A stretch of DNA of 64,000 nt from the NCBI RefSeq assembly GCF_026151205.1, contig NC_087080.1, forward strand, positions 7,481,096-7,545,095. Reading direction: 5' to 3'. The stretch comes from Bolinopsis microptera (Eukaryota > Ctenophora > Tentaculata > Lobata > Bolinopsidae). Shown here piece by piece: positions 1-63,196 of the stretch (within the stretch, counting starts at the first letter, position 1; each line of letters opens with the position of its first letter). The notes under the pieces were generated by a model that had not been told where the DNA came from, ran no database searches, and saw only the letters and a list, made by a program, of their open reading frames with translations. The position numbers were made by a program, and so were the translations under genes.

Positions 1-887
1 CGGCTCTTTCTTGTACAGAATCGCATGTCTTGATCTTTGAAACTAATTGCTGTTTGAAGATAAACGTTTTGACGACCTTTGTCATCATCCGACCGTAAAA
101 TCAGAGAAAATACCGACCAGGGATATGTTAAATAAGATATTGAGTTCCTCACTATACTCACCTGGCAGCTTCTCTACTACTCTGTACTGCCATCGGGCAT
201 CGTCAGTTACTGGCCTGCGTTTGCCGCTTTCAAATTTCTCCTTCACGAGCAATCCCACCCCCTTAATTACTCATCCAGACATTATACATCATCAATATAA
301 ATACTTGATATTTATATAAATTTATATATAAATGCCGTTAAAAAGTTTCTTTCAAGTTCTACAACGGCTGTTTCAATCCGTTGGTTGCCAGGTGGTTTTA
401 GGAATCGAATTAGGTCTTTTTAACTTTTCTCTGATATATGTTTTATTGAAAGCTTAAAATTCCGTTTGATGGCCACATCATTGTTTGAATTAATGAATGG
501 TCAAAGTAATATTTTGTGAGTAATTTATTCTTTGAATTGTCGATAAATTTTATCTTTTAATGTCTTCTTTAAGATTAATCCATAAATTCGATTAAATCAT
601 TGATTGATTGGGGACTGCTCCGTAGAATCAAACATTATTTATTCGACATGATATTGCATAATTGTATTGGCTATTAAAAATCCACACAGTATTAAAGATA
701 ATATAATTATAATAGCAATTTATTATGACGTATAATGGTAAGTTAGCGATATTCTCTGTATAATAAAAACTATATATATATATAATATGTCTAAATCTTA
801 ATAACTAACAAATATTTTAATATTTACCACTTACTTAAAATATAATATTAAGTTCCATGTCTTACAAACACACCAGTTCCTCAGACC
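1..887. other. Intergenic AT-rich DNA, no gene seen
   Basis: No ORF here resembles a protein. The last 200 bases are very AT-rich with runs of TATA. A CAG preceded by pyrimidines ends three bases before the GPCR start codon at 888, so a 5'-UTR intron may end there. Confidence 0.5.
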
Positions 888-1985
888 ATGTTTGACGTTA
901 ACACCTCTACAATGGACGAAATAACAGATGTCACAGAAGCATTTGCTAACTCGACAGGAGAATACTACTTCTGGATCTGGTCAGACTCAATGAGGATCAT
1001 TCTGATAGTCTACCTCATAGTGCTCCTAATTGTGGGCCTCATAGGGAACCTAATGGCACTGATGGGATCCATCTTCCACCACGCTATCAAAACTGATAAG
1101 ATCTCGGTGGTGATGTTGAGAGATCTAGCTATCACTGACATCCTCATCACCATCTTCCTCTACATCCCTCTTCTCTCTACCCTCCTCGCTAAAAGATGGG
1201 TCCTTGGTAAAACCTTCTGCGGGCTCTCCCACTACGCTTACGAGGTCCTCCTCCTCAACAAGATTGTTGTGATTGCCCTTATCTCCATCTACAGACTCTG
1301 GCTGATCAGAAAACCTCCATCTGTTAAAAGGATGCTGTCTCAGAACAAGTGCATTGTGCTGTGCCTGGTGATTCCTGTCATCTGTTTTGTCCCTCAGGTA
1401 CTTCTGGAGAAGTTCCTTAATGAAGCCAGCACTTTCTTCGACCCGATCAAGCTGACTTGCTACGGAAAGAATTACTATGGCGAGAAAGCAATCTGGTCCT
1501 TGTTAATCCTTTTCCCTGTCCTAATCGTGCCCATATTCATCATTATCGTGACTAACATTAAACTCATCGTCGTCCTTGTCACCCAGGCTCGAAAGACTAA
1601 ACGTGGGTTCCAGAAGCGACGGCTGTTCATTGCAATTAAGTTAATAAGACTTGTAATTGTTATAACGTACATGCCTGCCATCCTGTTCATGATAATGCAA
1701 TGGGTCTACAGATCTGACGAAGACCAGGAGACCCACAAGAAGACCCTTCATACTCTGAACTTTATGAACATTGTAGCCCCGCTCAACTGCGCTGCTAGCC
1801 CCATTCTCTACGTCCTTGCTAACAATGAGTTTAGAACGTATCTTGTCACGTGTGGCGGGCTCCTGCAGAAGGATCAGTGGAAGATTAACTTCCATTTCTC
1901 CAGTACACAGAGGCAGACCGGGCCGAGTGAGTTGGAGATGGAGGCTGTGGAATGCAATGATGATAATAGGGACAGTGAAAAATAG
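888..1985 (+). CDS. Class A (rhodopsin-like) G-protein-coupled receptor, single exon
   Basis: A 365-residue protein with seven hydrophobic segments, expected at the plasma membrane and coupled to a G protein. The N-terminus (about 30 residues) is acidic with N-x-S/T sites and has no signal peptide. TM1 carries GN (IGNLMAL) and TM2 carries LAxxD (LRDLAITD). A Cys precedes TM3 (GKTFCGLS), suitable for the usual disulfide to ECL2 (KLTCYGK). The DRY box at the end of TM3 is changed to YRL (ISIYRLWLIRKP), and NPxxY in TM7 is SPILY. The loop before TM6 is basic (KTKRGFQKRR). Length is normal for the family. These motifs indicate a peptide- or amine-type receptor, but the ligand cannot be told. A second Met lies at codon 9; the first is used because it follows a possible splice acceptor. 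Class assignment is firm, subfamily unknown. Confidence 0.85.
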   Translation: MFDVNTSTMDEITDVTEAFANSTGEYYFWIWSDSMRIILIVYLIVLLIVGLIGNLMALMGSIFHHAIKTDKISVVMLRDLAITDILITIFLYIPLLSTLLAKRWVLGKTFCGLSHYAYEVLLLNKIVVIALISIYRLWLIRKPPSVKRMLSQNKCIVLCLVIPVICFVPQVLLEKFLNEASTFFDPIKLTCYGKNYYGEKAIWSLLILFPVLIVPIFIIIVTNIKLIVVLVTQARKTKRGFQKRRLFIAIKLIRLVIVITYMPAILFMIMQWVYRSDEDQETHKKTLHTLNFMNIVAPLNCAASPILYVLANNEFRTYLVTCGGLLQKDQWKINFHFSSTQRQTGPSELEMEAVECNDDNRDSEK

Positions 1986-2684
1986 TAAAGATGATAAGAA
2001 CAGTAAAAAGTAGTAAAGATACCAGACTAAGGACAGTGAGAGACAGCAGTAACTGCACGAAATGCTGGCTAAGGTGCTAGATGAAGTGAATAGACATGTG
2101 GGCAGGTTTTTGGTTTGTAAACAACCAACAGTTCACATGAACCTGCACCCCGAGAAATTGTCACATAATTTGAGATTATTTTGAGCATTATGAATATTAT
2201 GTTTTAGACAGTCAGGAAGAGCAAATCCATGGAAGGATTTTAAACTTTCCAGATACGGTACATTTGTGATACATTATGGTTATTCAGACCATTGATCCTG
2301 TATGAAATTACACTGCTTAATGTTCTACTTCAGTATGTTACACTAGCAAATGATCCTGGGGGGGGGGGGGGGGGGGTACTTATTGTATTTGTACCTTAGA
2401 TTGCAACCCATTTGACATTATTAGCTACAATTTACAATTATTTCTATTTTTAAATTATTATATATTATTACACCAGATTATTCATTTTTCCATTTTGTTG
2501 CATTTTGCTTCGTTATTGAATAGACATTTTAGATACTCCAAAATTCTAGATTAGTTAGTTTCACCTAATTTCAATGATTTAAAGTAGATTATTATTAACC
2601 TATTACAAGCGACCTGTTTAACCAATCCTAGAGGTTTGCTCGCTAATATTAAATTTAAGCTTATAAATACACTTATACACTTAC

Positions 2685-4022: not shown

Positions 4023-5850
4023 TCACACAGTCACAAGAAGACCCCACACAGTCACAAGATTCCAAGAAGACCCAATACCGTCACAAGAAGACACCACACA
4101 GCCACAAGAAGACCCCACACAGCCACAAGAAGACCTCACACAGTCACAAGAAGACCCCACACAGTCACAAGAAGACCCCACACAGTCAAAAGAAGACCCC
4201 ACACCGTCACAAGAAGACCCAACACAGTCAAAAGAAGACGCCGCACAGTCACAAGAAGACCCCACACCGTCAAAAAAAGAACTCACACCGTCACAAGAAG
4301 ACCCCACACAGTCAAAAGAAGACCCCACACAGCCACAAGAAGACCCCACACAGCCACATGAAGACCCCACACAGTCGCAAGAAGACCCCACACAGCCACA
4401 AGAAGACCCCACACAGTCACAAGAAGACCCCATACAGCCACAAGAAGACCCCACACAGCCACAAGAAGACCCCACACAGCCACAAGAAGACCCCACACAG
4501 CCACAAGAAGACCCCACACAGTCGCAAGAAGACCCCACACAGCCACAAGAAGACCCCACACAGCCACAAGAAGACCCCACACAGTCACAAGAAGACCCCA
4601 CACAGCCACAAGAAGACCCCACACAGTCACAAGAATACCCCACACAGTCACAAGAAGACCCCACACAGTCACAAGAAGACCCCACACAGCCACAAGAAGA
4701 CCCCACACAGCCACAAGAAGACCCCACACAGTCACAAAAAGACCCCACACAGCCACAAGATCAAGAAGACCCCACACAGTCACAAGAAGACCCCACACAG
4801 CCACAAGAAGACCCCACACAGTCACAAGAATACCCCACACAGTCACAAGAAGACCCCACACAGTCACAAGAAGACCCCACACAGCCACAAGAAGACCCCA
4901 CACAGCCACAAGAAGACCTCACACAGCCACAAGAAGACCTCACACAGCCACAAGAAAACCCCACACAGCCACAAGAAGACCCCACACAGCCACAAGAAGA
5001 CCCCACACAGCCACAAGAAGACCCCACACAGTCGCAAGAAGACCCCACACAGCCACAAGAAGACCCCACACAGCCACAAGAAGACCCCACACAGCCACAA
5101 GAAGACCCCACACAGTCACAAGAAGACCCCGTGAGCCACAAGAATACCCCACACAGTCACAAGAAGACCCCACACAGTCACAAGAAGACCCAACACAGTC
5201 ACAAGAAGACCCCACACAGCCACAAGAAGACCCCACACAGTCACAAGAAGACCCCACACAGCCACAAGAAGACCCCACACAGTCACAAGAATACCCCACA
5301 CAGTCACAAGAAGACCCCACACAGTCACAAGAAGACCCCACACAGCCACAAGAAGACCCCACACAGCCACAAGAAGACCTCACACAGCCACAAGAAGACC
5401 TCACACAGCCACAAGAAAACCCCACACAGTCACAAGAAGACCCCACGCAGCCACAAGAAGACCCCACACAGCCACAAGAAGACCCCACACAGCCACAAGA
5501 AGACCCCACACAGTCACAAGAAGACCCCACACAGCCACAAGAAGACCCCACACAGTCACAAGAAGACCCCACACAGCCACAAGAAGACCCCACACAGTCA
5601 CAAGAATACCCCACACAGTCACAAGAAGACCCCACACAGCCACAAGAAGACCCCACACAGCCACAAGAAGACCTCACACAGCCACAAGAAGACCTCACAC
5701 AGCCACAAGAAAACCCCACACAGTCACAAGGAGACCCCACGCAGCCACAAGAAGACCCCACACAGCCACAAGAAGACCACACACAGCCACAAGAAGACCC
5801 CATACAGTCACAAGAAGACCCCACACAGCCACAAGAAGACCCCATTAGTT
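4023..5850. repeat. 21-bp minisatellite, roughly 85 copies
   Basis: The unit is close to CACACAGYCACAAGAAGACCC. The unit length is a multiple of three and holds no stop in several frames, so long ORFs read through it on both strands (Gln-Glu-Asp-Pro-Thr or His-Lys-Lys-Thr-Pro on +, Cys-Gly-Ser-Ser or Trp-Gly-Leu-Leu on -). Variant units (AAGAATACC, AAGACCTC, AAGAAAACC) recur in the same order near 4627, 4824, 5286 and 5604, which shows a higher-order repeat. A length change near 5134 moves the reading frame. The openness is an effect of the unit, so I do not call it a gene. Confidence 0.9.
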
Positions 5851-24489: not shown

Positions 24490-27400
24490 GTAAATAAAGG
24501 TAGGTTCTTTTCACTGACTTCGTTAAATGAGTTACATATTTTCACACAAATTACGTGCGTGATCATTAAAGGGTTGCTTGTGTGCAGTTACTTCTGGGCC
24601 AGCGCCACCCTGTTGGGAGTTTTCACATAAGTAAATTTGCCGATAATACAATTTTACTCATTCTGGACATGTTACCTATATTATCATTATACTAGTATTT
24701 CTTCAGGTCTGTCTTCTATAACCACGATGAAAAGAAAAGCTGGGCGAAAACATTTGAGACTGCAGATTGCAGAACTGGAACACTCTATTTGAAGACAGTG
24801 GCTGCTGAGTGCTGAGCTGCATCAAATCTATCAGCATCATGTAACTTCGATCAGGAACAGACTCCATTTCATTTCCGACAACTAGCACCTGTTTTCCCTA
24901 GACTTACCAAGTATTAAGTAACTGCATTAGTATTAGGTTAAATTAAAGGCCCTACATCGAACAAGTCTAACAATTAAAACTTAAATGCAAGAGTGCACAA
25001 TTTATCACTAAATATCTTCCTCTTTTAATTCTAATCAACACACGGTTTCGTCTTTGTTTCACCCAATCGTGCTGATAATCAGTAATCATGCACTCTGCAC
25101 TCTAACTTCGAGATGTTTCAAAAGGGCTCCCGACGAGTTGAATTAGATCAATATTTTCTTTTGATACATAGATACTGATTGGGAGGTTCATCATACTATT
25201 CTTGTCACATGGTAACGATTAACGATTAGCTGATCAGCTTCCAGCATCGACAGGCCGAAATCCATAAATATAATCAGTTGTAATTTAATATTTATCATCG
25301 TCCGGATCATCATAATATTTTAATTTAAAGTTACAATTGAACGGTGTTAAGAAAGATAATTTAAGAGAAATGTTTTGAAAGTGCCTGATTTCGAGTATAA
25401 GATCTGTACTGATACATTAATTTTCAGATTGTTATTATAGTTTATTTGTATTTTTTATATTATCTTATCCGCACAAGTTCGGAAGCCATCTGAACGCTAT
25501 TGCCAGACACAGGCATATATTTATTTTGGGGTATCATGCTCTCAGAAATTTCAACTCAGTCCGATATTATAGTTATACTAACCTGCATTGCACAAGGTTA
25601 ATTGTCTCGCAGTCTAGTGCATAAACCTTTTATTTTGTATAAACCCTTTATTTTGATTGGGAAAACTTTAGTTTAATGTGGTTACCGTCTCTAAAGTTGG
25701 CATGATAGTTAATAAACTCTTATCTATTATGTCACTGAAGATGACGCCTTGCAACATGTTTGACGATAGCCTGTAGATTGATAGTTTGATCTAAGTATTT
25801 ACAACAATTCATCTAGTTTGATTGATTCAAAGGGAAACAAATTCCTCTCTTATCTATTATGACTATATTTAAATTCAATCCTGTAAAGTGATACTCCTTT
25901 TTTAGTAATTTAAACATGTGTTTTCTCCTTCTGATTTTTAAACTATTACCGGTCACGCTGAATAATAATGACATCAGTGAATTTAAAGCTATCGTTAACA
26001 TCACTCAGAAAATGCGCGTCTTTAGCGCGTGTCTTGTTGTTATGCATCAATCCTTCGGTAGATCGGCGAGATGCACCACTGTGCCTCACCGAGCTGCGAA
26101 GGATTGACATCGTGAATCAAGCAACCACATGTATGTGGATCTGCATACGGTGGCCACCACCGTATGCAGATCGGCGAGATGCGAAGGATTGACGTCGTGA
26201 ATCAATGCGTGACGCGCTTGTTTCACAAGTAGAGTATATTTTTGCCGCCTTCGACGGTCGCGCGCTATTGCAAGCGAGAGGGCTCTGGTTAGAACAAGTG
26301 ATTAATCATCATCCTTGGAGGACTTCGCCGCTTCGACGCGCCGCGCGAACTAGCATTCTTGCTTCGCATCGTCAATCGTTGCTTTTCTTCGCAAAGCAAC
26401 GATCTCGATGGGTTGACATCGTCAATCAATCATCATTCGATTAAAGGACTTCGCTGCTTCAACGCGCCGCACAAATTATCATTTTTACTTCGTATCGACG
26501 ACGAGATAGTTGCTTTCTCAATTCGCAGAGCAACAACATGAAGGAATTAAGAAAACATTTAATTACATAAAAATATGGTTAAATCAATCTAAAATATGGA
26601 TGCATATTTTTCGATCTTCCAAATATAACGAATTGTATCAATGTGTAGTTGGTAGTGTGTACCCCTTTTTGTGGTACGACCACGGTCCTTTCGATACAGA
26701 TTTCCATGCAGCATAGACGGAACACAATCCCAGGAATGGCACATGCAATGTACTAGTGTTATTTTCGTAGCTTTAATGAGAGCCACTACTATTCACAACA
26801 TGGTTTGGTAAGTGACAGATGCCTTCAGTTTTGACACCTTGGCCCAACTTTACTGGGCTGCACTCAGGCCTCAGCCTGTCACTCCACCGCAGCTTCTATC
26901 GGCTTCGATCAGCTTCTATCAGCTTCATATAATGTGATAAACTTATTACAATTCGTAAGCCGTGAGCGACCGATTTCATTCTCGGTATCATTTTGAAGAT
27001 ACCTTACTAGCTTCCATCAATATATAACTTATAGTATCGTAGTTGAACTATGCTACAATTCAATCTGTTTATACTGGTCAGTTATAAACAAAATTTTGTC
27101 TCCAGAGCACTAGACAATCTTTATATCATCTATATATCAATTTATATCTATCAATTGATCAGACAATCTATATATCAGATATATCAGATATATATGTATC
27201 AGACAATCTATATATAAATTGTTGGGGATCTAACATTGCTAAAGAAAGTAGTGAAACAAATTTTTTTTTAGTGAAACAAATTTAAAATTTTATCCTTTAT
27301 TTTACAATCATAATATAATAATATTTATAAGCCTCCGTTTTGAAAGTTTTAAATTTTAATACATTCACATTTCTATTTGAAATTCAATTTTATGTACAAG

Positions 27401-28700
27401 TCAATAACTGGCCGCCAAAGCCGCGCATTCTTGAAAACAGGATTAACTTGATTATAGTTATGCGACTATGTAAATTTAAAACTATCCGTGGTTTTTTCTT
27501 TTAAATAAATAAATTATAATTTTACCTAAGTCCAAAGCCAGCTTTGAAAAATTTACTATTAAATCATAATATATCGTCAACTTTAAATATTTACAATGCA
27601 ACAATTCATTAATCTGTAAACACGCGTACTCCAGCCCCTAAACGCATAAATTGTTATGCGGCGCGGCTCAAGCCGCGCACGCACGTATTATTTTATACTG
27701 TTTGCTTTCTAATAAATATCGTGCCAATATGTACGTCTAAATTGTAAACGTTCATGTTTTGTGTAAAGTGAATCCAATTGGGACTAGTGACAAGGATAAG
27801 GACCCAAGTGCCTGTACGGCTTTTTCGGACCCCTGTGGACCACTACTCTTGAAATCACTCTACAACATTGAACATCTATATCTACTACGTCATTTGGCAA
27901 TTATTGTCATTAATCTAACTTTCTAATTAATTGCCGAGGGGGAAGAGTAAACGCTTCACATTAAAATTCAATATACAAAATTCAAAACCATCAATACGGT
28001 ATTAAATATTATGGACAAGTCTATAGATCTATTTCGTAGTCATATATTCACATGATTTGCTTTATATTATCTTAATACTGTAATGAAGTACAGTAGGATT
28101 TGTGTTTCGAGAAAGAAAGGTTGCGGTCAAATTATTAACAAAAGTAAACAAAAGTCCATCAGGGACTCCGTGGAGTCGAAAAAGGTACACGGCTGCTGTC
28201 TGGTGCTGCTAGGCATTTATTGATCAAGATGTTTTATTGTATTGATTTATAATGATTCTATTGTTCGTGACTAATCAAGTTCTAAGTGGAGGTATAAAGT
28301 GCTGCTCAAGATACTTCGTCATCTCATGTCCAGTATAATGATTAAGATAGTATACAATGCAGTTTTAGTAGTTGACCCATACAGTTAAGTCCGTCATAAC
28401 TCACAATCGTTAAGTCGTCGGTCAATTGTCAAAGTCGTTGTGTGTTTATTCGTTGAGATAGCAGTAAGATAAGATGTTACGCGCGCGCGCGTTTAATCCC
28501 GTCGACGTGAGATGTGACAATGAAAACTTCATAGAATTATTATTTTCGCGCGTTACGTAGAGTTTACCAGTGTGTAATACTAGTTAACACTGGGTGTACA
28601 CTGAGTGTAAGTGTAAGTTTCATATACAAGCCGTTGAATATTTCCAATTTTGAGTGTATCGTGAGCATGTTTTACAGTGCGATTGCTCGGTACTAGTGTG
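24490..28700. other. Repeat-rich intergenic DNA, no gene seen
   Basis: Contains copies of the GC-rich dispersed repeats at 26045-26200 and related ATCGTCAATC-rich segments to 26540. An AT-rich region of TATATATCAGA repeats lies at 27115-27220, a short GC hairpin GGCGCGGCTCAAGCCGCGC at about 27660, and a CG run at 28480-28492. No coding region is supported. Confidence 0.4.
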
Positions 28701-28817
28701 TTTGTGTATATATATATATATCATTTGTGGAGTATGGTGTAAGTAATGTTTTTGGTTGGAGTGCAGTGGTTATATGTATGAGAAAAGATATATGGTCATT
28801 TTAGTAACTCACATAAA

Positions 28818-31800
28818 TCAGAACTTGAGCTCATTTGTGGCTAAATTAAGCTCACACCAATCAAGTGTATCATGCTTGAATTGCAATTCTCGTAAGGCAA
28901 TTTTCAATATATTCTTAAACCCGTTTGTCGGAGTATTAAAACTTATCTTACTTGATGTTTGTCGACAGCTGTTCCACATGTAGGATGATTGGTAGATGAA
29001 TTGTGAGGATGGTTGTGATGTAATGAAATAATCCTCTCGTCGTGGTGACCTGTTAAATGATGAGTACAGTGATAATGGTTCCTCTAACTTATTAATTTTG
29101 AATAGTTCTAAGAGACAAGTGTACTTGTACAGATTGTGGACCGTCAACAACCTGTGGGTTTTAAACAAGGGCTTGGAGTGTTCTTTTTGGTAAAAGTCCA
29201 CCCCCAGTCTTTGCTTATCAACAGGTCGTGTTCGGGCACACGTTTTAAACTTCTCTAGGTAAGCTTCTCTATCCCCAAACAGAATTCTTATACACTTTTT
29301 CTGTGTTTTAAAGATAGGTTCAAGTCGGTTATTGCTAATACCACCCCACACAGATATTCCAAATCCTAAATGTGATTCAAATAGAGTATGATATAAATCC
29401 TTATAATACTGCTTTGGGACAATGTGTCGTATTCTGCACAGCTTTCCTACTTCGCATTTAAGTTTTGAGTTAAGTGACTGCGTATGTGATTTCCAGTTAA
29501 GTTGGTCGTCAATAATAACGCCTAGAAATTTAGCTTCTTGAACTCTTTTAATAACTACATTATTTAAGGTTAGTATGTTCTCGTCATTTTCTACTTCCTC
29601 TTTGGCCCGTGAGGGTTTAAAATGAATAAAACAACATTTCTTAATGTTAATATGTAATAAGTTTAGTTTCATATACTTGTACACAAATGATAGAACTTCA
29701 TTTCCTTTTTCGTATAGTCTTTTGACATATGTGTCTTCTATAAATATGTTAGTGTCGTCGGCAAATAGTATAAACTTTCCTATAATTGATGAGTTACGGA
29801 TGTCATTAATATAAATAATAAAAAGTAAGGGACCAAGACAGCTCCCCTGCGGCACTCCATAGACTACTGGAAGTTTCTCGGATTCTTCACCTAATACCGA
29901 GACATACTGGTATCTGTTCGACAGGTAACTTGCTATAAGGTTATTTGCATTTCCACGGATTCCATAATTTTCTAACTTATGCAGTAACTTTTCATGTGAT
30001 ATTGTATCAAAGGCTTTACTAAGATCAATAAATATTCCAAGAACGTGTTGTTTTTTCTTGAGGCAAGATTCTACGTGGTTCACTGAGTAATTTAGGGCAT
30101 AACTGGTCGAGTGATTTTTACGGAATCCGTACTGGTTTTCATATAAGGAGTTCTGTGAATGAAAGAAGCTGTATAATCTATTGAATATAATCTTTTCAAA
30201 TATTTTACCAAACACAGCTAGCGTTGATACAGGTCTATAGTTTTCAAGGAGTTCCTGGTTATCTTTCTTGTAAATGGGACTAATCCTTCCAACTTTAAGG
30301 TCATCTGGAAATATGCCATCTTTCATACATTCGTTATACAGTACAGTGAGTAAAGGAGTAACTATTTTAGAGGACTGCTTAATTACATGAATTGGTATGT
30401 CACTTGCCTTGCCATTTTTAAGTTCAGATATGATTTTGCTAACCTCGTCTGTTGTGCAGTCATGCATGTAAATGCTGGAAGTGTTTGAAAGCGGTAGATA
30501 ATCATAGAAACTAGGTATACTGTTTATGTTAATTTGTCCAAGATCATTGTAAGCGGTATTTAGGTCAGAGGCTAATGATACAAAATATTTATTGAATTCG
30601 TTTGCTATGATCCTTCTATTTGTTATCTTAACGTTGTCTATGGTGAACAGCGGCTTTATTTCACGCCGCCGTTTACCTCTTATACGATTTATTAGTTCCC
30701 AGGTCTTTTTACTATCACCGCTATTTTCAGCAAATTTACCAGAGAAGTATTCTGTTTTCACAGTTTGACGTGTTTTCTTTAGGACTTTTCTGTATTCTTT
30801 GTAGATAAGGTAGCGACTACGTTTTAGTGAGCATTCAGGGCACTGGCAAATGCCGCCCTTGTTATCAGTTTCCCCGAGTTTACATTTTCTATTTCTTATC
30901 TCGACCCAATTTTCGTACAGTTTATGCTGATTATTAATTGAGCAAATGAGACCGGGAGTTATCCAAGGGTTAACCTGAACAGTTCTCTTAGAGGTTTTCG
31001 GGGTCTCTAGTTTAAACGATTTTTCGACGCAGTTTTTGTAAGTGTCATGGAATTCAGTAAAGTTATGGATTGTTTTAGTTTTAAGCTCATCTTCAAGATC
31101 CACTAGGAAGCCGTTAACATTTGATTGACAGAAGTCGTAATATTGTTTAAAAGAAGTTTTTTCAGAGTTGACTTCAACATTCCAGTTAAATGTGTTAAAA
31201 ATAGGTGAGTGATGAGTTATTCGTTCTTTTAGGGTGCCTGAAGTAATCACATTCTCAATATCGTTAGTAATAATGTTATCTATGCAGGATGCTTTACAGC
31301 CTGGTTTTTCGTGGGTAACAATAGATATTAACGGACAAAATCCTTTACTGAATAATATTTCTTCATATTTTTGAACATTTTTGTTATCTTTATCATGAAG
31401 ATCGATATTAAAGTCTCCAGCTAGATAACTAAACTTCGGCATGTGATCAAGAAGGTTAGAAAGTTCAACTAGAGCTTGGGAAATACAGCCACTTGGTGGA
31501 CGATACAAAACACCTACATTAACAGGTTGATCTTCGTTACTTAATGATAAGACAAGTATTTCTAGATGTTCTGTGACTTGTGATATATTCTCAATTACAG
31601 TAGCATTTAATTTATCGTCAACATAAAGGGCTACTCCAGTGCCCTTTTGTTTGTTAGGTGCTGTGTCCTGATAGTAACTATTATAACCGTCGAGCTGAAA
31701 TAGATTGCTTGATTCTTTTCCAGTGTTGGTTTCAGCTAGGGCTATTACGGAGAATTTTGTTTTGTACCTACAGGTTTCAATGGCAAGGTTGTCAAAATTT

Positions 31801-32171
31801 GATTTATTTCCATCAATATTTTGAAAGAGAATAGATGATTGTTTCTTTACTTGGTTGCAGAGAATATTTGTAAGGTCAGATGCAGTGTATGAGTTACAAT
31901 CATTTAAAGTATTTGAGATTTTGGTTGTGTATTCGTCTAGGTTGTTGTCGTCGTCGTCATTGTCAGTGAGTAGTTTAAATGGGTTGTATTTAACCTTGTC
32001 TAAATGGATACAACGAGTACAGTAAAACTCATTAGATTGGCTATTTGGATTTGATTTGCGATAGCATTTATGGTGCATTATGCAGTCACAGTGAAAACAT
32101 TCAACTATTGTTTGGCCGATGACTATGTTCTTAGAACAGACAGGACATACCTCCTTAATGAGGGGAGTCAT
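28818..32171 (-). CDS. LINE ORF2: zinc finger, endonuclease, reverse transcriptase
   Basis: An 1117-residue polyprotein that nicks target DNA and copies the LINE RNA at the nick. Residues 9-56 hold a Cys/His zinc finger (CPVC, CFHC, HHKC, CTRC), PHD- or RING-like. The apurinic-type endonuclease follows (about 110-320) with IALAETNTG, GVLYRPPSG, the metal-binding AGDFNIDL, and THHSPIF at its end. The reverse transcriptase (about 580-850) has RPVSTLAVFGKIFEKI, YGFRKNHST, FIDLSKAFDTI, GVPQGSCLGPLLF and catalytic FADD. The C-terminal part has the conserved LGV-DDQLNWKSH and a Cys-containing tail, as in jockey/CR1 proteins. The start ATG (32171-32169) overlaps the ORF1 stop. All catalytic motifs are present. 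Confidence 0.93.
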   Translation of the reverse strand: MTPLIKEVCPVCSKNIVIGQTIVECFHCDCIMHHKCYRKSNPNSQSNEFYCTRCIHLDKVKYNPFKLLTDNDDDDNNLDEYTTKISNTLNDCNSYTASDLTNILCNQVKKQSSILFQNIDGNKSNFDNLAIETCRYKTKFSVIALAETNTGKESSNLFQLDGYNSYYQDTAPNKQKGTGVALYVDDKLNATVIENISQVTEHLEILVLSLSNEDQPVNVGVLYRPPSGCISQALVELSNLLDHMPKFSYLAGDFNIDLHDKDNKNVQKYEEILFSKGFCPLISIVTHEKPGCKASCIDNIITNDIENVITSGTLKERITHHSPIFNTFNWNVEVNSEKTSFKQYYDFCQSNVNGFLVDLEDELKTKTIHNFTEFHDTYKNCVEKSFKLETPKTSKRTVQVNPWITPGLICSINNQHKLYENWVEIRNRKCKLGETDNKGGICQCPECSLKRSRYLIYKEYRKVLKKTRQTVKTEYFSGKFAENSGDSKKTWELINRIRGKRRREIKPLFTIDNVKITNRRIIANEFNKYFVSLASDLNTAYNDLGQININSIPSFYDYLPLSNTSSIYMHDCTTDEVSKIISELKNGKASDIPIHVIKQSSKIVTPLLTVLYNECMKDGIFPDDLKVGRISPIYKKDNQELLENYRPVSTLAVFGKIFEKIIFNRLYSFFHSQNSLYENQYGFRKNHSTSYALNYSVNHVESCLKKKQHVLGIFIDLSKAFDTISHEKLLHKLENYGIRGNANNLIASYLSNRYQYVSVLGEESEKLPVVYGVPQGSCLGPLLFIIYINDIRNSSIIGKFILFADDTNIFIEDTYVKRLYEKGNEVLSFVYKYMKLNLLHINIKKCCFIHFKPSRAKEEVENDENILTLNNVVIKRVQEAKFLGVIIDDQLNWKSHTQSLNSKLKCEVGKLCRIRHIVPKQYYKDLYHTLFESHLGFGISVWGGISNNRLEPIFKTQKKCIRILFGDREAYLEKFKTCARTRPVDKQRLGVDFYQKEHSKPLFKTHRLLTVHNLYKYTCLLELFKINKLEEPLSLYSSFNRSPRREDYFITSQPSSQFIYQSSYMWNSCRQTSSKISFNTPTNGFKNILKIALRELQFKHDTLDWCELNLATNELKF

Positions 32172-34312
32172 GGTTGGTAACCATCCACGTGACCCTGACT
32201 AGCAGCAGCAGGAACAACAGGACCAGTTTCTCTTCCAGCAGTCGCATCCCTGTATGATCTATCGTCTACCCTTGTGGACCTCCTCTTCCTTTTGTCGATA
32301 CCACCGTTAATCCTGAGAAGAACAGTGTTACGAATAAATTGACCTAACTTTGCTAGTCCCCTCCAGTTGAGGTGAAGGAAGTCCGGTTTTTGGTATTTGT
32401 TGAGGTCGCGAGAGAGAGAGCGGTCAAGGAGACCATCCCTATCACAGAACTCATCAAATCCATCCACATAACTGACACCAAAATTGGACGGGAGCAGCCT
32501 ACATCGAATCAAACTGTTAAAGTATATAAGCTTTCTATTTAAATCAGCACGTTTAGAAGGAATTGTTGGACAAACATATACATGCACACCCGGATTAATA
32601 GATTGAATCTGGGCAATTTTTGAAACTAGATGGTTGTAGATTATATCAATATCGTTTTGGCTTTTTACATCTGTTTGTTTCAGGTCATTAACCCCACACA
32701 ATATAACACAGTTTCTATAGCCACAGGACACATAAGGATCAATGCTATCGACAGTTGGGGCAAAGAATCGTTTTCCAGGAAGCCATTTGCCGAATGACTT
32801 GGCAGGATCAGAACCGAATTTCAGTCCGCCGGTGTTCGAGTCCCCAATGATACATGTAGCGTTTCTATTCAGGGAACTGACTGATCTCAATGTTATGCTG
32901 TAGCGCAGCCCAGTTATCTCGCCTGCATCGATACGATGGTGGAACAGTGCTTGGCTACGACGAGTCATTACATATAATGATCCTGGGCCACATAGTTGCT
33001 TGTGCTCATCAATACCTGTACTAGCATCAGAGAAAGAAACATGACATGCAGTACCAAGAGAGACTGTAAAGATACTTGATTCCGGGTGGATAGAAGGCTC
33101 GTTATCAGAGTGTCTAGGCAAGGTGCTGCTTGTGCCGTCAAACCGATTCACCAAACAGCTGTTAACCTGAGGTTGGTCACCTGAACAAAACTCACTGTTG
33201 ATTCTGTCGATGAGTTTTCTCAAGGGTGGTGGTATTGCCTTTGGTGTCTTGGACGACTTAGATCCAGGATAATCGTACCGTTCCCCATATGATAGGCAGG
33301 AGCGTTCGTTTTCAATTTTGAAGTCTGTGCTGCTCAAATCAAATAGGTCAACTAGTTCTTCCGCAGTCTTCTGATCTATAAAATCGTTTTTGAACAGTTC
33401 CACAGGTTTCTGCTCATGATGAGGTGGCTGCAAAAGGACAGGTGGTGCTGGAGGACGAGGATGCTGTGCAGGAGGTAGGTTGGGAGGAATGCAAGGACCA
33501 GGGTTATGCAATGGCTGTATAGAACTTATAGACTGTTTTAGTTCAGCAATGCCTGCAGCTACAGTGGGCTCATTTGCAGAAAGTGCGGTGAGTTGTTCTG
33601 AGATGCTCTTCAGAAACTGCTCAGATGAGTCTGTAGATGGGGATGATTCAGGGGAAGGTCTAGATGCTAAAAGTTTAAGGTCCCTCTGTAGTTCAGCAAT
33701 GTTGGTATTTATTGATTCTAATGATTTGTCATGGAGCTTTATTTCATTATTTAGGCCATTAAGGGAGTTCTCTTTAAGAAGCAGGTGTTGAAGGTGAACG
33801 TCGAACTGGGAGAGAGTGTCAAGGTTCCTAGAGAACTGTTCGAAGTCAAATTTTTCAAGAGCTGAGCCTGCTGAGCTTGCTGATGCCACAAGTGCACTGA
33901 CAGTTTCAAGATTCTTAACAGCTGTAGATGCTTCAAAATCTGAGTTGGCCTGTTGCAAAGCCCTTGTGTTCCTGCAGCTGTAACAAAATTCGTCTCTCTG
34001 TTTCTTCAGTGTTGATACTGGTGCCACGAAGCAGTATGGGCACAGCCATTCTACCATGGAGTTGATAGCTGACCTCGTTATACCCTTCATAGACAAGCAG
34101 TCCACATGCCACTCTTGATGACACTTAGAACAGTCAATGAGGTAAACTTTACCGTTAAAAGAGCGTTGACATGGACATTTCTTCTTGTCCCTATGTTTCC
34201 TGTTTACCTGATCTTCATTGTCCACTGTAGATTCGGCTAAAATGTTGCGAGACAAGCTATTAGATGTTTTAGGAGTACCTGAATTCTTCCTAGTATTTGA
34301 CGCCATTTTCAA
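32168..34312 (-). CDS. LINE ORF1: PHD finger, coiled coil, AlkB-like dioxygenase, SGNH esterase
   Basis: A 714-residue protein, expected to bind the LINE RNA. Residues 46-94 form a PHD finger (KCPCQRSF, DCSKCHQEWHVDC, WLCPYC). About 150-270 is a leucine-rich likely coiled coil, followed by a Pro-rich linker. About 305-477 looks like an AlkB-family 2-oxoglutarate/Fe(II) dioxygenase: NRFDGTSS, then PRHSDNEPSI with the HxD iron ligands (H401, D403), IFTVSLGTACHVSF, GPGSLYVMTRRSQALFHHRI with the distal His, and RYSITLR giving the RxxxxxR signature for 2-oxoglutarate. About 485-665 is an SGNH hydrolase: GDSNTGG (S492), GVND, and DFLHLN (D644, H647). The esterase and PHD are known in CR1-group ORF1; the AlkB domain is the unusual part. 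Ends in TGA overlapping the ORF2 ATG. Confidence 0.85.
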   Translation of the reverse strand: MKMASNTRKNSGTPKTSNSLSRNILAESTVDNEDQVNRKHRDKKKCPCQRSFNGKVYLIDCSKCHQEWHVDCLSMKGITRSAINSMVEWLCPYCFVAPVSTLKKQRDEFCYSCRNTRALQQANSDFEASTAVKNLETVSALVASASSAGSALEKFDFEQFSRNLDTLSQFDVHLQHLLLKENSLNGLNNEIKLHDKSLESINTNIAELQRDLKLLASRPSPESSPSTDSSEQFLKSISEQLTALSANEPTVAAGIAELKQSISSIQPLHNPGPCIPPNLPPAQHPRPPAPPVLLQPPHHEQKPVELFKNDFIDQKTAEELVDLFDLSSTDFKIENERSCLSYGERYDYPGSKSSKTPKAIPPPLRKLIDRINSEFCSGDQPQVNSCLVNRFDGTSSTLPRHSDNEPSIHPESSIFTVSLGTACHVSFSDASTGIDEHKQLCGPGSLYVMTRRSQALFHHRIDAGEITGLRYSITLRSVSSLNRNATCIIGDSNTGGLKFGSDPAKSFGKWLPGKRFFAPTVDSIDPYVSCGYRNCVILCGVNDLKQTDVKSQNDIDIIYNHLVSKIAQIQSINPGVHVYVCPTIPSKRADLNRKLIYFNSLIRCRLLPSNFGVSYVDGFDEFCDRDGLLDRSLSRDLNKYQKPDFLHLNWRGLAKLGQFIRNTVLLRINGGIDKRKRRSTRVDDRSYRDATAGRETGPVVPAAASQGHVDGYQP

Positions 34313-34376
34313 ATCAAATGTAAGTAATACTGACCAAATAGATCCGACTTGGGGTCGGCTCCCGTTAAGTGTTTTG

Positions 34377-35495
34377 TTTTGGAGGAGATTAGGACTTCAG
34401 AGTTGATGACCCTAGTAAAGTGTAGATGACCCTAATAGAGTGTAGAATGTAGATGACCCTTAGCTTAGTACGCCCCTTCGGGGGAGTTGTAACATACCAT
34501 TCCTCAATAAATGTATTTAATTGTAGTTGTGAAAATAGTTTAAAAGTAATGACTGTTTCTTGTTGTTGTTAGTTCAGTCATTTAGCATATATAATGGGAC
34601 TTACACAGTAAACTAGTAGAAAAAGTATAACATGATACATTCAATCAAATCATGTGAGGCAATTGGTAGAGCACAGCTGTACACAGGTAAAGGAAATGGT
34701 CCATTGCCACCAAAATTAGTCGATATCTCTCAATTTTCATTATATCAAAACAAGTAATATCCAAACAATATAGGACCAATATAGGACTTATATTACAATA
34801 TAAGGCCTATATTGCACATGTGTTTTGAGGCTGGATAACAGTGCTGGACAGTATCTCCATTTCTAAGGTAACATGCCAAGCTCCTGGGTACCTCAAGCCC
34901 AATCTGTGTTAGGGCAGGATTTAGTTTATAGAATATGCACTATACAGGGGTGCTAAAAGTAACGTTACTTATGTTGGGTCTTATACCACCACTGTGTTTC
35001 ATGTTCGAGACCTGTAACTTTGCAGATGGCATGCTGTAACTACTCATTCGAGGATTCCGTCATCAAAATAAATAGCCTATATTGTTCTTTCCGAACATGC
35101 TAGACGCCTAATGTTTTTAGATTACTGAGCTGCAGATGATGAATTGTTGCATTTGATATGAAAAAATGAGGCAAAATGGGTTTTAAATGACAAAGTTATC
35201 AAACATTTTGTGTCACCTGATCAGGTAATCAAATCACCTGATCACATGAATAAACTCGTTGTGCTTCGTATCTTGTTTATCTGAGAAGCTACAACTCTAA
35301 TTTTTACTTGACTATATAATACTTTACTTTAACTGTAGTGAGGTGTGCTCCACAATTTGAAGTATCTCCTCTCTCTGATATTGTCAATCGATTTATAAAA
35401 TGTTTAATCAACCAGTGGCCCCCAAATTTATCACACTAAATTTGTTCTTCTCTTGCCAGCTTAATTAATATACATACATAATAATGATATTTCAG
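34377..35495. other. Intergenic DNA between the LINE and SUPT7L
   Basis: Just outside the LINE, GTAGATGACCCT is repeated three times (34400-34460), perhaps part of its 5' end or target. AATATAGGAC-type short repeats lie near 34770-34815. No gene is seen. A pyrimidine tract and CAG at about 35486-35495, ten bases before the SUPT7L start, may end a 5'-UTR intron. Confidence 0.4.
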
Positions 35496-37788: not shown

Positions 37789-58648
<20,860 letters not shown>

Positions 58649-61488: not shown

Positions 61489-62496
61489 TCAACACCTTCC
61501 AAACGCAATCTCCCTGATGCCCCTTTCACTGATGAGCATGTAGCAAGCCACGACCATGCTACCAGTCTGTGGAACAAATGTGCCAGAGAAGAACCAAATG
61601 TAAACACTCCGACTAATGTTGGTTTTGTCCAACATTGCTAGGTTTACTGAAAATACAGCAAAAGATGCTGCGGCTATAATATCTGAGAACACAAGGATAG
61701 TTACCAGCTTAAATTCCCTCTTAACCATTCCAGCGACTCTTATTTCACCAGTTTGGTACCAAAACCTAATCCAGGTGGCCAAATAAATGCCGGCCACAAT
61801 ACAACACACTATGATGAATGGAACCGTGGTTACAGCATCACCGATAACTGTTTTTTTCGATAATGGAATAGAGAATCCATCCGGGCTTCTGTTCATTTGT
61901 CCGTATATGATTGCAGCAGCAAAACAACAAGTGAAAAGAACGCTTATTGCGATTACTATACCCTTTATCAGTTTAAATGATTCGTTAAGGATTGTCCATA
62001 ATGGACAGTGGATATTACTGTACTGCATAGCAACTATCACAGTGTCGAAGGATATCAGTGCTACTGAACTCAGGATGCCTACAATATTCAAGGCTATTTC
62101 CCACCATCGGAAACTCATTATTTGGGAGAAATCTCGATCATTGAGAAGAATGTAAGAAGCAAGGATACAGCTGGAAGTTAAAAAGACCGGTCGAGCGAGG
62201 GAGATGTAAAAGAGATGTCTGTTAATCCAGGAAGGTCGGTTATCCTTGTAGTAGTGAATCAGGAGCAAGTTCACTATAAGTCCGACCACTATGTAGGCTA
62301 TCAGGACTCCTGCACAAACATAGTTCATGATCTCGTCAGTCTTGGTTCCTGTGTAGATGATCTTTCCAACTACTGTGATATTTCCGAAGGCAACCATTCT
62401 ACTATTGGGTGTTAATAATAATATTAAGATAACTAAGCTTTTCACATGACAAATATTGGAACATGTGTTTGATATTTGATAATTTATCCTTCGCAA
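61489..62496 (-). CDS. Divergent seven-transmembrane receptor, single exon
   Basis: A 335-residue protein with an N-terminal hydrophobic run (SLVILILLLTP) that may be a signal peptide, followed by seven hydrophobic segments: starting about MNYVCAGVLIAYIVV (TM1), HLFYISLARPVFLTSS (TM2), WWEIALNIVGILSSVAL (TM3), KGIVIAISVLFTCCFAAA (TM4), TTVPFIIVCCIVAGIYLA (TM5), FKLVTILVFSDIIAAAS (TM6) and SVYIWFFSGTFVPQTG (TM7). TM1 keeps GxxxN (GLIVN) of class A. TM2 has LAR where LAxxD is usual, TM3 ends FDTVIVAMQY with no DRY, and TM7 has SMVVACYML where NPxxY is expected. It is probably a fast-evolving class A-like GPCR. A shorter start (MVAFGNIT at 62397) would remove the hydrophobic leader. Ligand and coupling unknown. 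Confidence 0.65.
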   Translation of the reverse strand: MRRINYQISNTCSNICHVKSLVILILLLTPNSRMVAFGNITVVGKIIYTGTKTDEIMNYVCAGVLIAYIVVGLIVNLLLIHYYKDNRPSWINRHLFYISLARPVFLTSSCILASYILLNDRDFSQIMSFRWWEIALNIVGILSSVALISFDTVIVAMQYSNIHCPLWTILNESFKLIKGIVIAISVLFTCCFAAAIIYGQMNRSPDGFSIPLSKKTVIGDAVTTVPFIIVCCIVAGIYLATWIRFWYQTGEIRVAGMVKREFKLVTILVFSDIIAAASFAVFSVNLAMLDKTNISRSVYIWFFSGTFVPQTGSMVVACYMLISERGIREIAFGRC

Positions 62497-63196
62497 ACTT
62501 TCTTAAACAAACTGTACCACTATAAAATATTTATAAGGAATAAAGATAATTACGTTTTCTGTTCATCAGCAAGCAAATTTAAAATCAGAAAATCAAAATT
62601 TTAACATTTATTTAAAGTAAGCAACACCGAAATAACTTCGTCATTCTGAGAAAGTGAGACCACAGGATAAGACATCAAGCAAGTTTTTAATCAACTTATA
62701 TTCGTTGTTGAGGGATAATATTTCACCGCCTCGGATAAGTCGTGATAAAATGTTTCACGAGATTCAAAAGCAAAACCAACATTTTCAACGTCTACAGAGT
62801 ACAGTGAAGAGAATGTGCAGAATATCTTAGATGGGAGCTTTCGCTCGTTAGATAACGTGACTCGTCGGATCAGTATCACGCCCATGTGATCACGCTTAGA
62901 TAACCGGGGTAGGAGGTGGTATGTGCTGTGATGAGCGGTGTAATGTGACCTACTAGCAGAGTGTTGTTCATGCAATGTCTACAATTTGTGACCACACGTA
63001 CAGGGGGAACATTCTTGTATTGGGCAAATGTTTTCATTAATTCGATACTTTTTCCTCAATTAACTCGATAGTTCATTAAGCTCAAAAAGTTAATGAAGCT
63101 TGTTATTATTAAGCTCTGAATAATATTTTTTGTTAGATAACCGTTTCTAATGATTAATTAATCAAATTAATTAATTTTAATTAAATATATCACCAG
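62497..63196. other. Intergenic DNA, no gene seen
   Basis: The 94-codon minus-strand ORF at 62691-62975 resembles nothing known. From 63050 the DNA is rich in TTAATTAA. Confidence 0.35.

Follow-up and report, generated by a model that had tools for sequence, protein, structure and literature searches.

A 64,000-nucleotide stretch of the genome of the ctenophore Bolinopsis microptera (NC_087080.1, positions 7,481,096 to 7,545,095; hereafter the window) carries a long interspersed nuclear element (LINE) whose first open reading frame (ORF1) encodes a complete AlkB-type dioxygenase domain in the same protein as a PHD-like zinc finger and an SGNH esterase. This assignment is supported by profile matches, predicted fold, residue conservation and purifying selection. 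AlkB domains also reside in other LINEs and in Helitrons of the same animal, where purifying selection preserves them in a Helitron group as well as in several LINE lineages. An earlier reading made from the letters of the window alone (the sequence-only reading) had predicted the AlkB domain in this frame, and several of its claims are evaluated below.

The element, a non-LTR (long terminal repeat) retrotransposon of approximately 7.3 kb, occupies positions 27250..34553 on the minus strand, with its 3ʹ end at 27250 and its 5ʹ end near 34553, give or take some bases. Six copies elsewhere in the genome (99.1-99.7% DNA identity) reach 3ʹ to window positions 27248-27270, beyond which the flanks differ. 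At the other end, the aligned copies stop at 34507 in four cases and at 34433 and 34409 in two, and the sequence just upstream of 34507 appears by eye to be similar to the 5ʹ stretch of copy L016. No target-site duplication was recognised by eye at the flanks of the copies. ORF1 (32168..34306, minus strand) comprises 712 codons from ATG to stop and lies within an open frame of 742 codons from stop to stop (34396-32168; P0001, used here for residue numbers), whose first ATG is at 34306. The plus strand of the ORF1 interval has many stops in the frame translated there. The sequence-only reading placed the frame correctly at 32168..34312, an interval that ends two codons before the first ATG, but its 714 codons become 712 when the minus-strand frame is counted from that ATG.

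ORF2 (28818..32171, minus strand, from its first ATG; the open frame begins at 32198) encodes a zinc-finger-like N-terminal region, an endonuclease (approximately 31260-31754; Pfam Exo_endo_phos at 1.1e-4, slightly under its cut-off) and a reverse transcriptase (approximately 29511-30269; Pfam RVT_1 at 2e-36). The ORF1 stop and the ORF2 start overlap as ATGA at 32168-32171, which suggests coupled translation. With an endonuclease and a reverse transcriptase encoded downstream of ORF1, and with copies dispersed through the genome, the element is a multi-copy LINE that was apparently active in recent times. We take it to be probably CR1-like on the basis of its ORF1 architecture.

The AlkB-type 2-oxoglutarate/Fe(II) dioxygenase domain (32873..33406, minus strand; residues 331-508) matches Pfam 2OG-FeII_Oxy_2 (PF13532) with an E-value of 5.1e-16 and 59.9 bits, against a curated cut-off of 31.2, and it also matches PHROG 21963 at 6.7e-15. 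It is far from the NCBIfam equivalog model of bacterial AlkB (19.8 bits versus a cut-off of 231). Its structure model has the double-stranded beta-helix of the AlkB fold and resembles solved AlkB structures. The key residues are H429, D431 and H487 for iron, and R498 and R504 of the RxxxxxR motif (alignment columns H113, D115, H171, R182 and R188). Neither these five residues nor the glutamate of an HxDxE motif, which aligns with that of ALKBH2, varies in any of the 27 domains aligned, a set that includes four less than 20% identical to the window domain. The HxD...H...RxxxxxR pattern is likewise present in all 35 loci from L009 to L043, a count that skipped L001-L008, among which L004 has no equal in the 35. 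Because loci entered the sample through their resemblance to the window protein or a high Pfam score, it is biased toward intact domains.

The sequence-only reading had named the same five positions, in its numbering H401, D403, H459, R470 and R476, as the AlkB set, and had counted a fold other than the double-stranded beta-helix, or free variation of these residues among relatives, as evidence to the contrary. Neither was seen in the model or in the rows examined, and of the two candidate distal histidines that it offered, the second is the conserved one. A chance match to AlkB was rejected on the Pfam score (5e-16), the fold, the invariance of the residues and the ratio of non-synonymous to synonymous divergence (dN/dS, given below). 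A freely varying motif was rejected for the rows examined.

A profile built from 14 LINE AlkB domains, made without Helitron or L034-type rows, was compared with solved homologues. It matched ALKBH2 (2.9e-22) and ALKBH3 (9e-22) best, followed by ALKBH8 (6.4e-14), Escherichia coli AlkB (1.4e-8), ALKBH6 (8.5e-5) and ALKBH5 (9e-4). By both profile and fold, the closest solved homologues form the ALKBH2/ALKBH3 subgroup. ALKBH5 is not the closest, a ranking that is nonetheless compatible with activity on N6-methyladenine (m6A).

The domains that flank AlkB in ORF1 were identified with varying strength. The PHD-like finger (34031..34177, minus strand; residues 74-122) matches Pfam PHD at 9.5e-4 and 19.6 bits, under the curated cut-off of 24, and its cysteine and histidine columns are invariant across 19 aligned ORF1s. 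A probable coiled coil and linker (33527..33829, minus strand; residues ~190-290) follows, for which coiled-coil families give weak matches only (E-values of 0.04 and up, residues ~189-291). Its assignment upstream of the esterase draws on these matches and on the precedent described for esterase-type ORF1s (PMC3905857). The SGNH/GDSL esterase domain (32282..32860, minus strand; residues 513-705) carries the GDS, GVND and DFLH motifs. Its Pfam Lipase_GDSL_2 match (6e-6, 27.3 bits) is under the cut-off of 32.9, though the fold and the motif residues agree in identifying the SGNH esterase of type IV ORF1s. The AlphaFold2 model of this domain has a mean confidence (pLDDT) of 81.6, with sialate O-acetylesterase as its best PDB match and platelet-activating factor acetylhydrolase lower, and the aspartate and histidine of its DxxH block are invariant in 11 aligned rows. 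Thus, of the order PHD, coiled coil, AlkB and esterase given by the sequence-only reading, the PHD, AlkB and esterase positions are borne out by Pfam, and the coiled coil is weakly shown.

We searched the genome (264,652,675 bases in 232 contigs) with the whole ORF1 frame and obtained 68 matches (60 of 1,513 candidates scored). By identity, they fall into groups of approximately 97-100%, 84-86%, 72-81% and 42-50%; one short piece stands at 92%. Besides the window copy, nine stop-free matches, each 99-100% identical, span either residues 1-742 or residues 19-742, and a tenth near-full match (residues 53-742) holds one stop. Two of the copies have unusual surroundings. At L013, a full window-family copy has beside it another AlkB domain (1456-2004, minus strand), which belongs to the L036 family; since both flanks look by eye like L036-type ORF1, one AlkB LINE has seemingly inserted into another. 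At L018, a copy of the 85% subfamily (1-1859) has upstream and downstream flanks that match window ORF2, the upstream flank at 99.4% DNA identity, and so has seemingly inserted into another copy.

Purifying selection on the AlkB core is evident from dN/dS values of 0.07-0.19 in 9 of 11 pairs compared. The nine comprise PHD-bearing LINEs (window/L015, 0.16; window/L018, 0.19; L023/L026, 0.18; L024/L026, 0.16; L027/L028, 0.09), a LINE pair without PHD (L030/L033, 0.16), LINEs in which AlkB comes first (L034/L038 and L034/L039, both 0.07) and a pair from the Helitron group (L029/L043, 0.17). The other two are window/L021, at 0.28 with a synonymous divergence of 2.1, and L036 versus the short-frame copy in L013, at 0.99 on 17 changes. 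Separate values for close pairs are 0.33 for L015/L018 (13 changes) and 0.61 for window/L014 (3 changes).

A genome search with PF13532 returned 151 matches (150 of 587 candidates scored). All 150 listed are above the curated cut-off and 149 are free of stops; the window copy, at 59.9 bits, scores lower and falls outside this list, which is therefore a lower bound. Sixteen of the 150 loci were read, of which 11 lie in LINEs, two in the Helitron group and three (L040, L041 and L042) in host-like frames with no transposon domain by Pfam. The Pfam scores of these three host-like ALKBH frames exceed those of every other listed match. The 13 transposon cases thus all belong to element kinds with a single-stranded intermediate.

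The LINE cases differ in architecture. L035, L036 and L037 resemble the window element in having PHD, AlkB and SGNH domains, with PHD under the cut-off in all three; GDSL is found at 5e-7 in L036 and at 0.03 in L037, and in L035 the SGNH region aligns although Pfam finds none. L030-L033 combine AlkB with SGNH (GDSL at 8e-6 to 1e-3, under the cut-off), and L049 appears by eye to have AlkB followed by SGNH. In L034, L038 and L039, AlkB comes first, and by eye a coiled coil follows it, with an end that is SGNH-like; in the one frame of the three given to Pfam, a truncated one from L034, no GDSL was found. At an E-value of 0.05, PHD was not found in LINEs L030-L034, nor in L029 and L043 of the Helitron group.

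An ORF2 with reverse transcriptase was confirmed by Pfam in L030, L031, L032 and L034 and was read in L033; the sequence at hand holds only the start of ORF2 for L035-L037 and L049, and none of it for L038 and L039. An ORF2 tree with 13 rows sets the window group (eight rows), L030/L031/L033, L032 and L034 apart on long branches, and by this tree AlkB-bearing LINEs span at least four ORF2 lineages. We presume by eye that L034, L038 and L039 are RTEX elements; all that the tree adds is that L034 is distant from its other rows. A tree of 27 AlkB domains groups every LINE row of the window-like, L035-L037 and L030-L033 kinds, 19 in total, on the same side of a branch (support 76/78). It also splits these rows plus the Helitron rows from the host-like and L034/L038/L039 rows (96/93), but it has many long branches, whose joins may be false. 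An AlkB tree restricted to the 13 rows of the ORF2 tree is poorly resolved.

Helitrons represent the second kind of element with an AlkB domain. A single frame at L029 contains GDSL (8.8e-6), AlkB (4.9e-21), DUF6570 (1.1e-13) and Helitron_like_N (PF14214, 3.4e-22), and is thereby identified as a Helitron Rep protein. L043 has the same SGNH, Pro/Ala-rich and AlkB parts, and the sequence at hand ends before the Rep region. When the genome was searched with PF14214, all 51 candidates were scored and 41 Rep matches resulted. Comparison of the two lists by eye reveals six loci at which AlkB and Rep share a strand, are separated by 3.6-4.5 kb and sit in open frames of equal length (2225, 2459, 3226, 3321, 3366 and 3388 residues; twice on C9, once on C10, once on C3 and twice on C12); L029 is the one of the six that was read. 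Two further loci (C12 and C10) have AlkB and Rep in different frames of one strand, no more than 5 kb from each other. The remaining Rep matches have no AlkB nearby among the matches listed, and AlkB therefore seems to belong to some Helitrons rather than to all. A second group of Helitron-like Rep frames (G000 C2:4687865-4704958 and others), 2,092-2,939 residues where long, likewise has no AlkB nearby among those matches.

Synonymous divergence changes abruptly along some of the LINEs. Between the window element and L015, it is 0.03-0.07 at ORF1 residues 1-180, 0.30 at 181-240, 0.8-1.2 or saturated at 241-600, and 0.05 at the end. In ORF2 of the same pair, it is 0.03-0.16 over the first 300 codons and 0.35-0.72 at approximately codons 600-1020, then 0.16 and 0.08. 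Between L024 and L026, it is 0.03-0.41 across PHD, coil and AlkB, and rises to 0.63 or saturation in the esterase and to 0.74 or saturation in ORF2, which indicates a breakpoint near the AlkB/esterase border. Over 2.6 kb of ORF2, the DNA of L030 and L033 is 98.3% identical, but over 1.2 kb of ORF1 the figure is 70.5%. From such jumps, we read ORF1 parts as having been exchanged between LINE subfamilies, and the evolution of CR1/L2 ORF1 is described as reticulate (PMC4120745).

What might an AlkB domain do for a LINE? The sequence-only reading suggested that it demethylates the RNA or cDNA of the element or removes a host silencing mark, either of which is plausible. With moderate confidence, we propose that it keeps the single-stranded RNA of the element readable by removing N1-methyladenine (m1A) and N3-methylcytosine (m3C). 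The ORF1 protein would coat the RNA, and its AlkB domain would bind the single strand and oxidatively strip methyl groups from the Watson-Crick face, chiefly those of m1A and m3C. These lesions would form where nucleic acid is single-stranded and would impede reverse transcriptases, such that their removal would leave the template readable until target-primed reverse transcription. In Helitrons, the domain would instead mend the DNA intermediate, which is single-stranded. Membranes or lipids would be the concern of the esterase, a role already proposed for that of ZfL2-1, and we presume that the PHD finger binds chromatin.

Published biochemistry is consistent with several of these steps. ALKBH3 prefers single-stranded DNA and mRNA, whereas ALKBH2 prefers double-stranded DNA, and both act on m1A and m3C, polymerase-blocking lesions that appear mostly on single-stranded nucleic acid (PMC11431407). 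The R2-derived reverse transcriptase used in ordered two-template relay (OTTR) is impeded by m1A, and AlkB removes m1A and m3C, with a modest effect on intact tRNAs (PMC12140624). In addition, esterase-type ORF1 proteins are described as having no defined RNA-binding domain (PMC3905857), and for this reason the AlkB domain may double as the RNA-binding part of ORF1.

Alternatively, the domain could be an epitranscriptomic or epigenetic eraser that takes m6A off element RNA, or N6-methyladenine (6mA) off DNA, and so evades host marking and silencing. The profile lies much nearer to ALKBH2 and ALKBH3 than to ALKBH5, which favours m1A/m3C removal over m6A erasure, and a literature search on ctenophore DNA methylation, whose one listed paper concerns gastropods, yielded neither m6A nor 6mA data from this species; we consider an eraser possible but doubtful. 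The domain might otherwise be mainly a nucleic-acid-binding module that replaces the RNA-binding domain missing from esterase-type ORF1s, with catalysis secondary or lost, and the ALKBH3 structure was indeed solved with single-stranded DNA. However, a pure binder is expected to lose catalytic residues in some lineages, and the invariance of these residues and of the HxDxE glutamate in all aligned domains makes this explanation unlikely. Less probable still is that the domain acts on a protein, or on the host DNA where the element inserts, as in chromatin-protein hydroxylation or target mending, and not on the nucleic acid of the element. The PHD-like finger in the same protein would accord with it, as would the preference of ALKBH2 for double strands and the fact that some AlkB homologues modify proteins, for example ABH4 on actin (PMC11431407). 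Yet the nearest homologues of the window domain are nucleic-acid repair enzymes, and AlkB elements in which no PHD is detected show that the finger is not tied to AlkB. Finally, a roleless passenger captured by chance, already disfavoured, is very improbable: transposons do pick up host sequence and one pair of the 11 has a dN/dS near unity, but nine are well below it, the catalytic residues are invariant and AlkB recurs in several LINE lineages and in Helitrons.

Beyond repair of the RNA template by the window LINE, a broader and more tentative reading can be offered. Elements that pass through a single strand, LINEs as RNA and Helitrons as DNA, might share or trade an alkylation-repair module together with an SGNH esterase, its order reshuffled. 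AlkB would then be a general upkeep enzyme reached separately by transposons and RNA viruses, and in ORF1 also the missing RNA-binding domain. Mobile elements may in this way protect their single-stranded genomes from damage or methyl marks. If true, LINEs and Helitrons bring their own nucleic-acid repair, template damage such as m1A and m3C acts as a selective force on transposons, and esterase-type ORF1 proteins gain a candidate RNA-binding domain. That RNA-based and DNA-based elements of the same genome both carry this enzyme shows that accessory modules span more than one element class.

Other features of the window were recorded. A tandem array at 4063-5844 consists of 84.6 copies of a 21-base unit (92% matches; consensus CAAGAAGACCCCACACAGCCA) and is open in several frames on both strands. 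By eye, a 282-residue frame with many spaced IFYAKR-like units (55662-56510, minus strand) resembles a neuropeptide precursor, a single open frame of 917 residues (51027-53780, plus strand) resembles an intronless ionotropic glutamate receptor, and two frames (852-1985, plus strand; 61489-62502, minus strand) resemble seven-helix receptors.

Selfish genomes with AlkB domains have precedents outside transposons. AlkB domains occur in RNA-virus polyproteins, and giant viruses have AlkB genes. Structure matches of the window domain in BFVD include RNA-virus polyprotein or giant-virus AlkB proteins. Such viral AlkBs share the fold seen here, but they reside in a replicase polyprotein or a separate protein rather than in a transposon. 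No close relatives were found in viral contigs, where three stretches fitted a pattern and none was confirmed.

Among transposons, at least one case of AlkB is known. In Phalaenopsis orchids, Ty3/Gypsy elements carry an AlkB-type dioxygenase with m6A RNA demethylase activity in vitro (PMC9289625), and in having gained such an enzyme they parallel the window LINE. The orchid element, however, is a plant LTR retrotransposon whose AlkB is encoded by an extra ORF and lies near m6A demethylases in sequence (PMC9289625). Here, the domain is fused within the ORF1 of an animal LINE, is nearest to ALKBH2 and ALKBH3, and has further LINE and Helitron counterparts. A literature search combining AlkB or dioxygenase with transposons, covering the titles and abstract beginnings listed and leaving Repbase reports and most subscription papers outside its scope, returned no case in a LINE ORF1 or a Helitron.

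The remaining architecture of the window ORF1, in which the coiled coil is a probable one, parallels the type IV ORF1 of CR1/L2 elements such as zebrafish ZfL2-1, in which a coiled coil and then an SGNH esterase lie upstream of an endonuclease/reverse transcriptase ORF2, and PHD fingers are also known in this group (PMC3905857, PMC4120745). Unlike in the window ORF1, AlkB seems to have no place in those proteins, as the words AlkB and oxygenase are absent from the main texts of both papers. Moreover, a survey of 448 Jockey-superfamily elements reports the esterase type in two vertebrate groups only (PMC4120745). Fish Helitrons carrying the SGNH hydrolase texim offer a counterpart for the Helitron group (PMC4021074), but at L029 SGNH, AlkB and Rep occupy one frame, and the abstract of that report names no AlkB. 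In bdelloid rotifers, accessory domains (GDSL and DEDDy) are common to different retroelement classes of one animal (PMC5408684). The word oxygenase has a count of zero in the text of that report, whereas in B. microptera the AlkB domain is found both in LINEs and in a DNA element.

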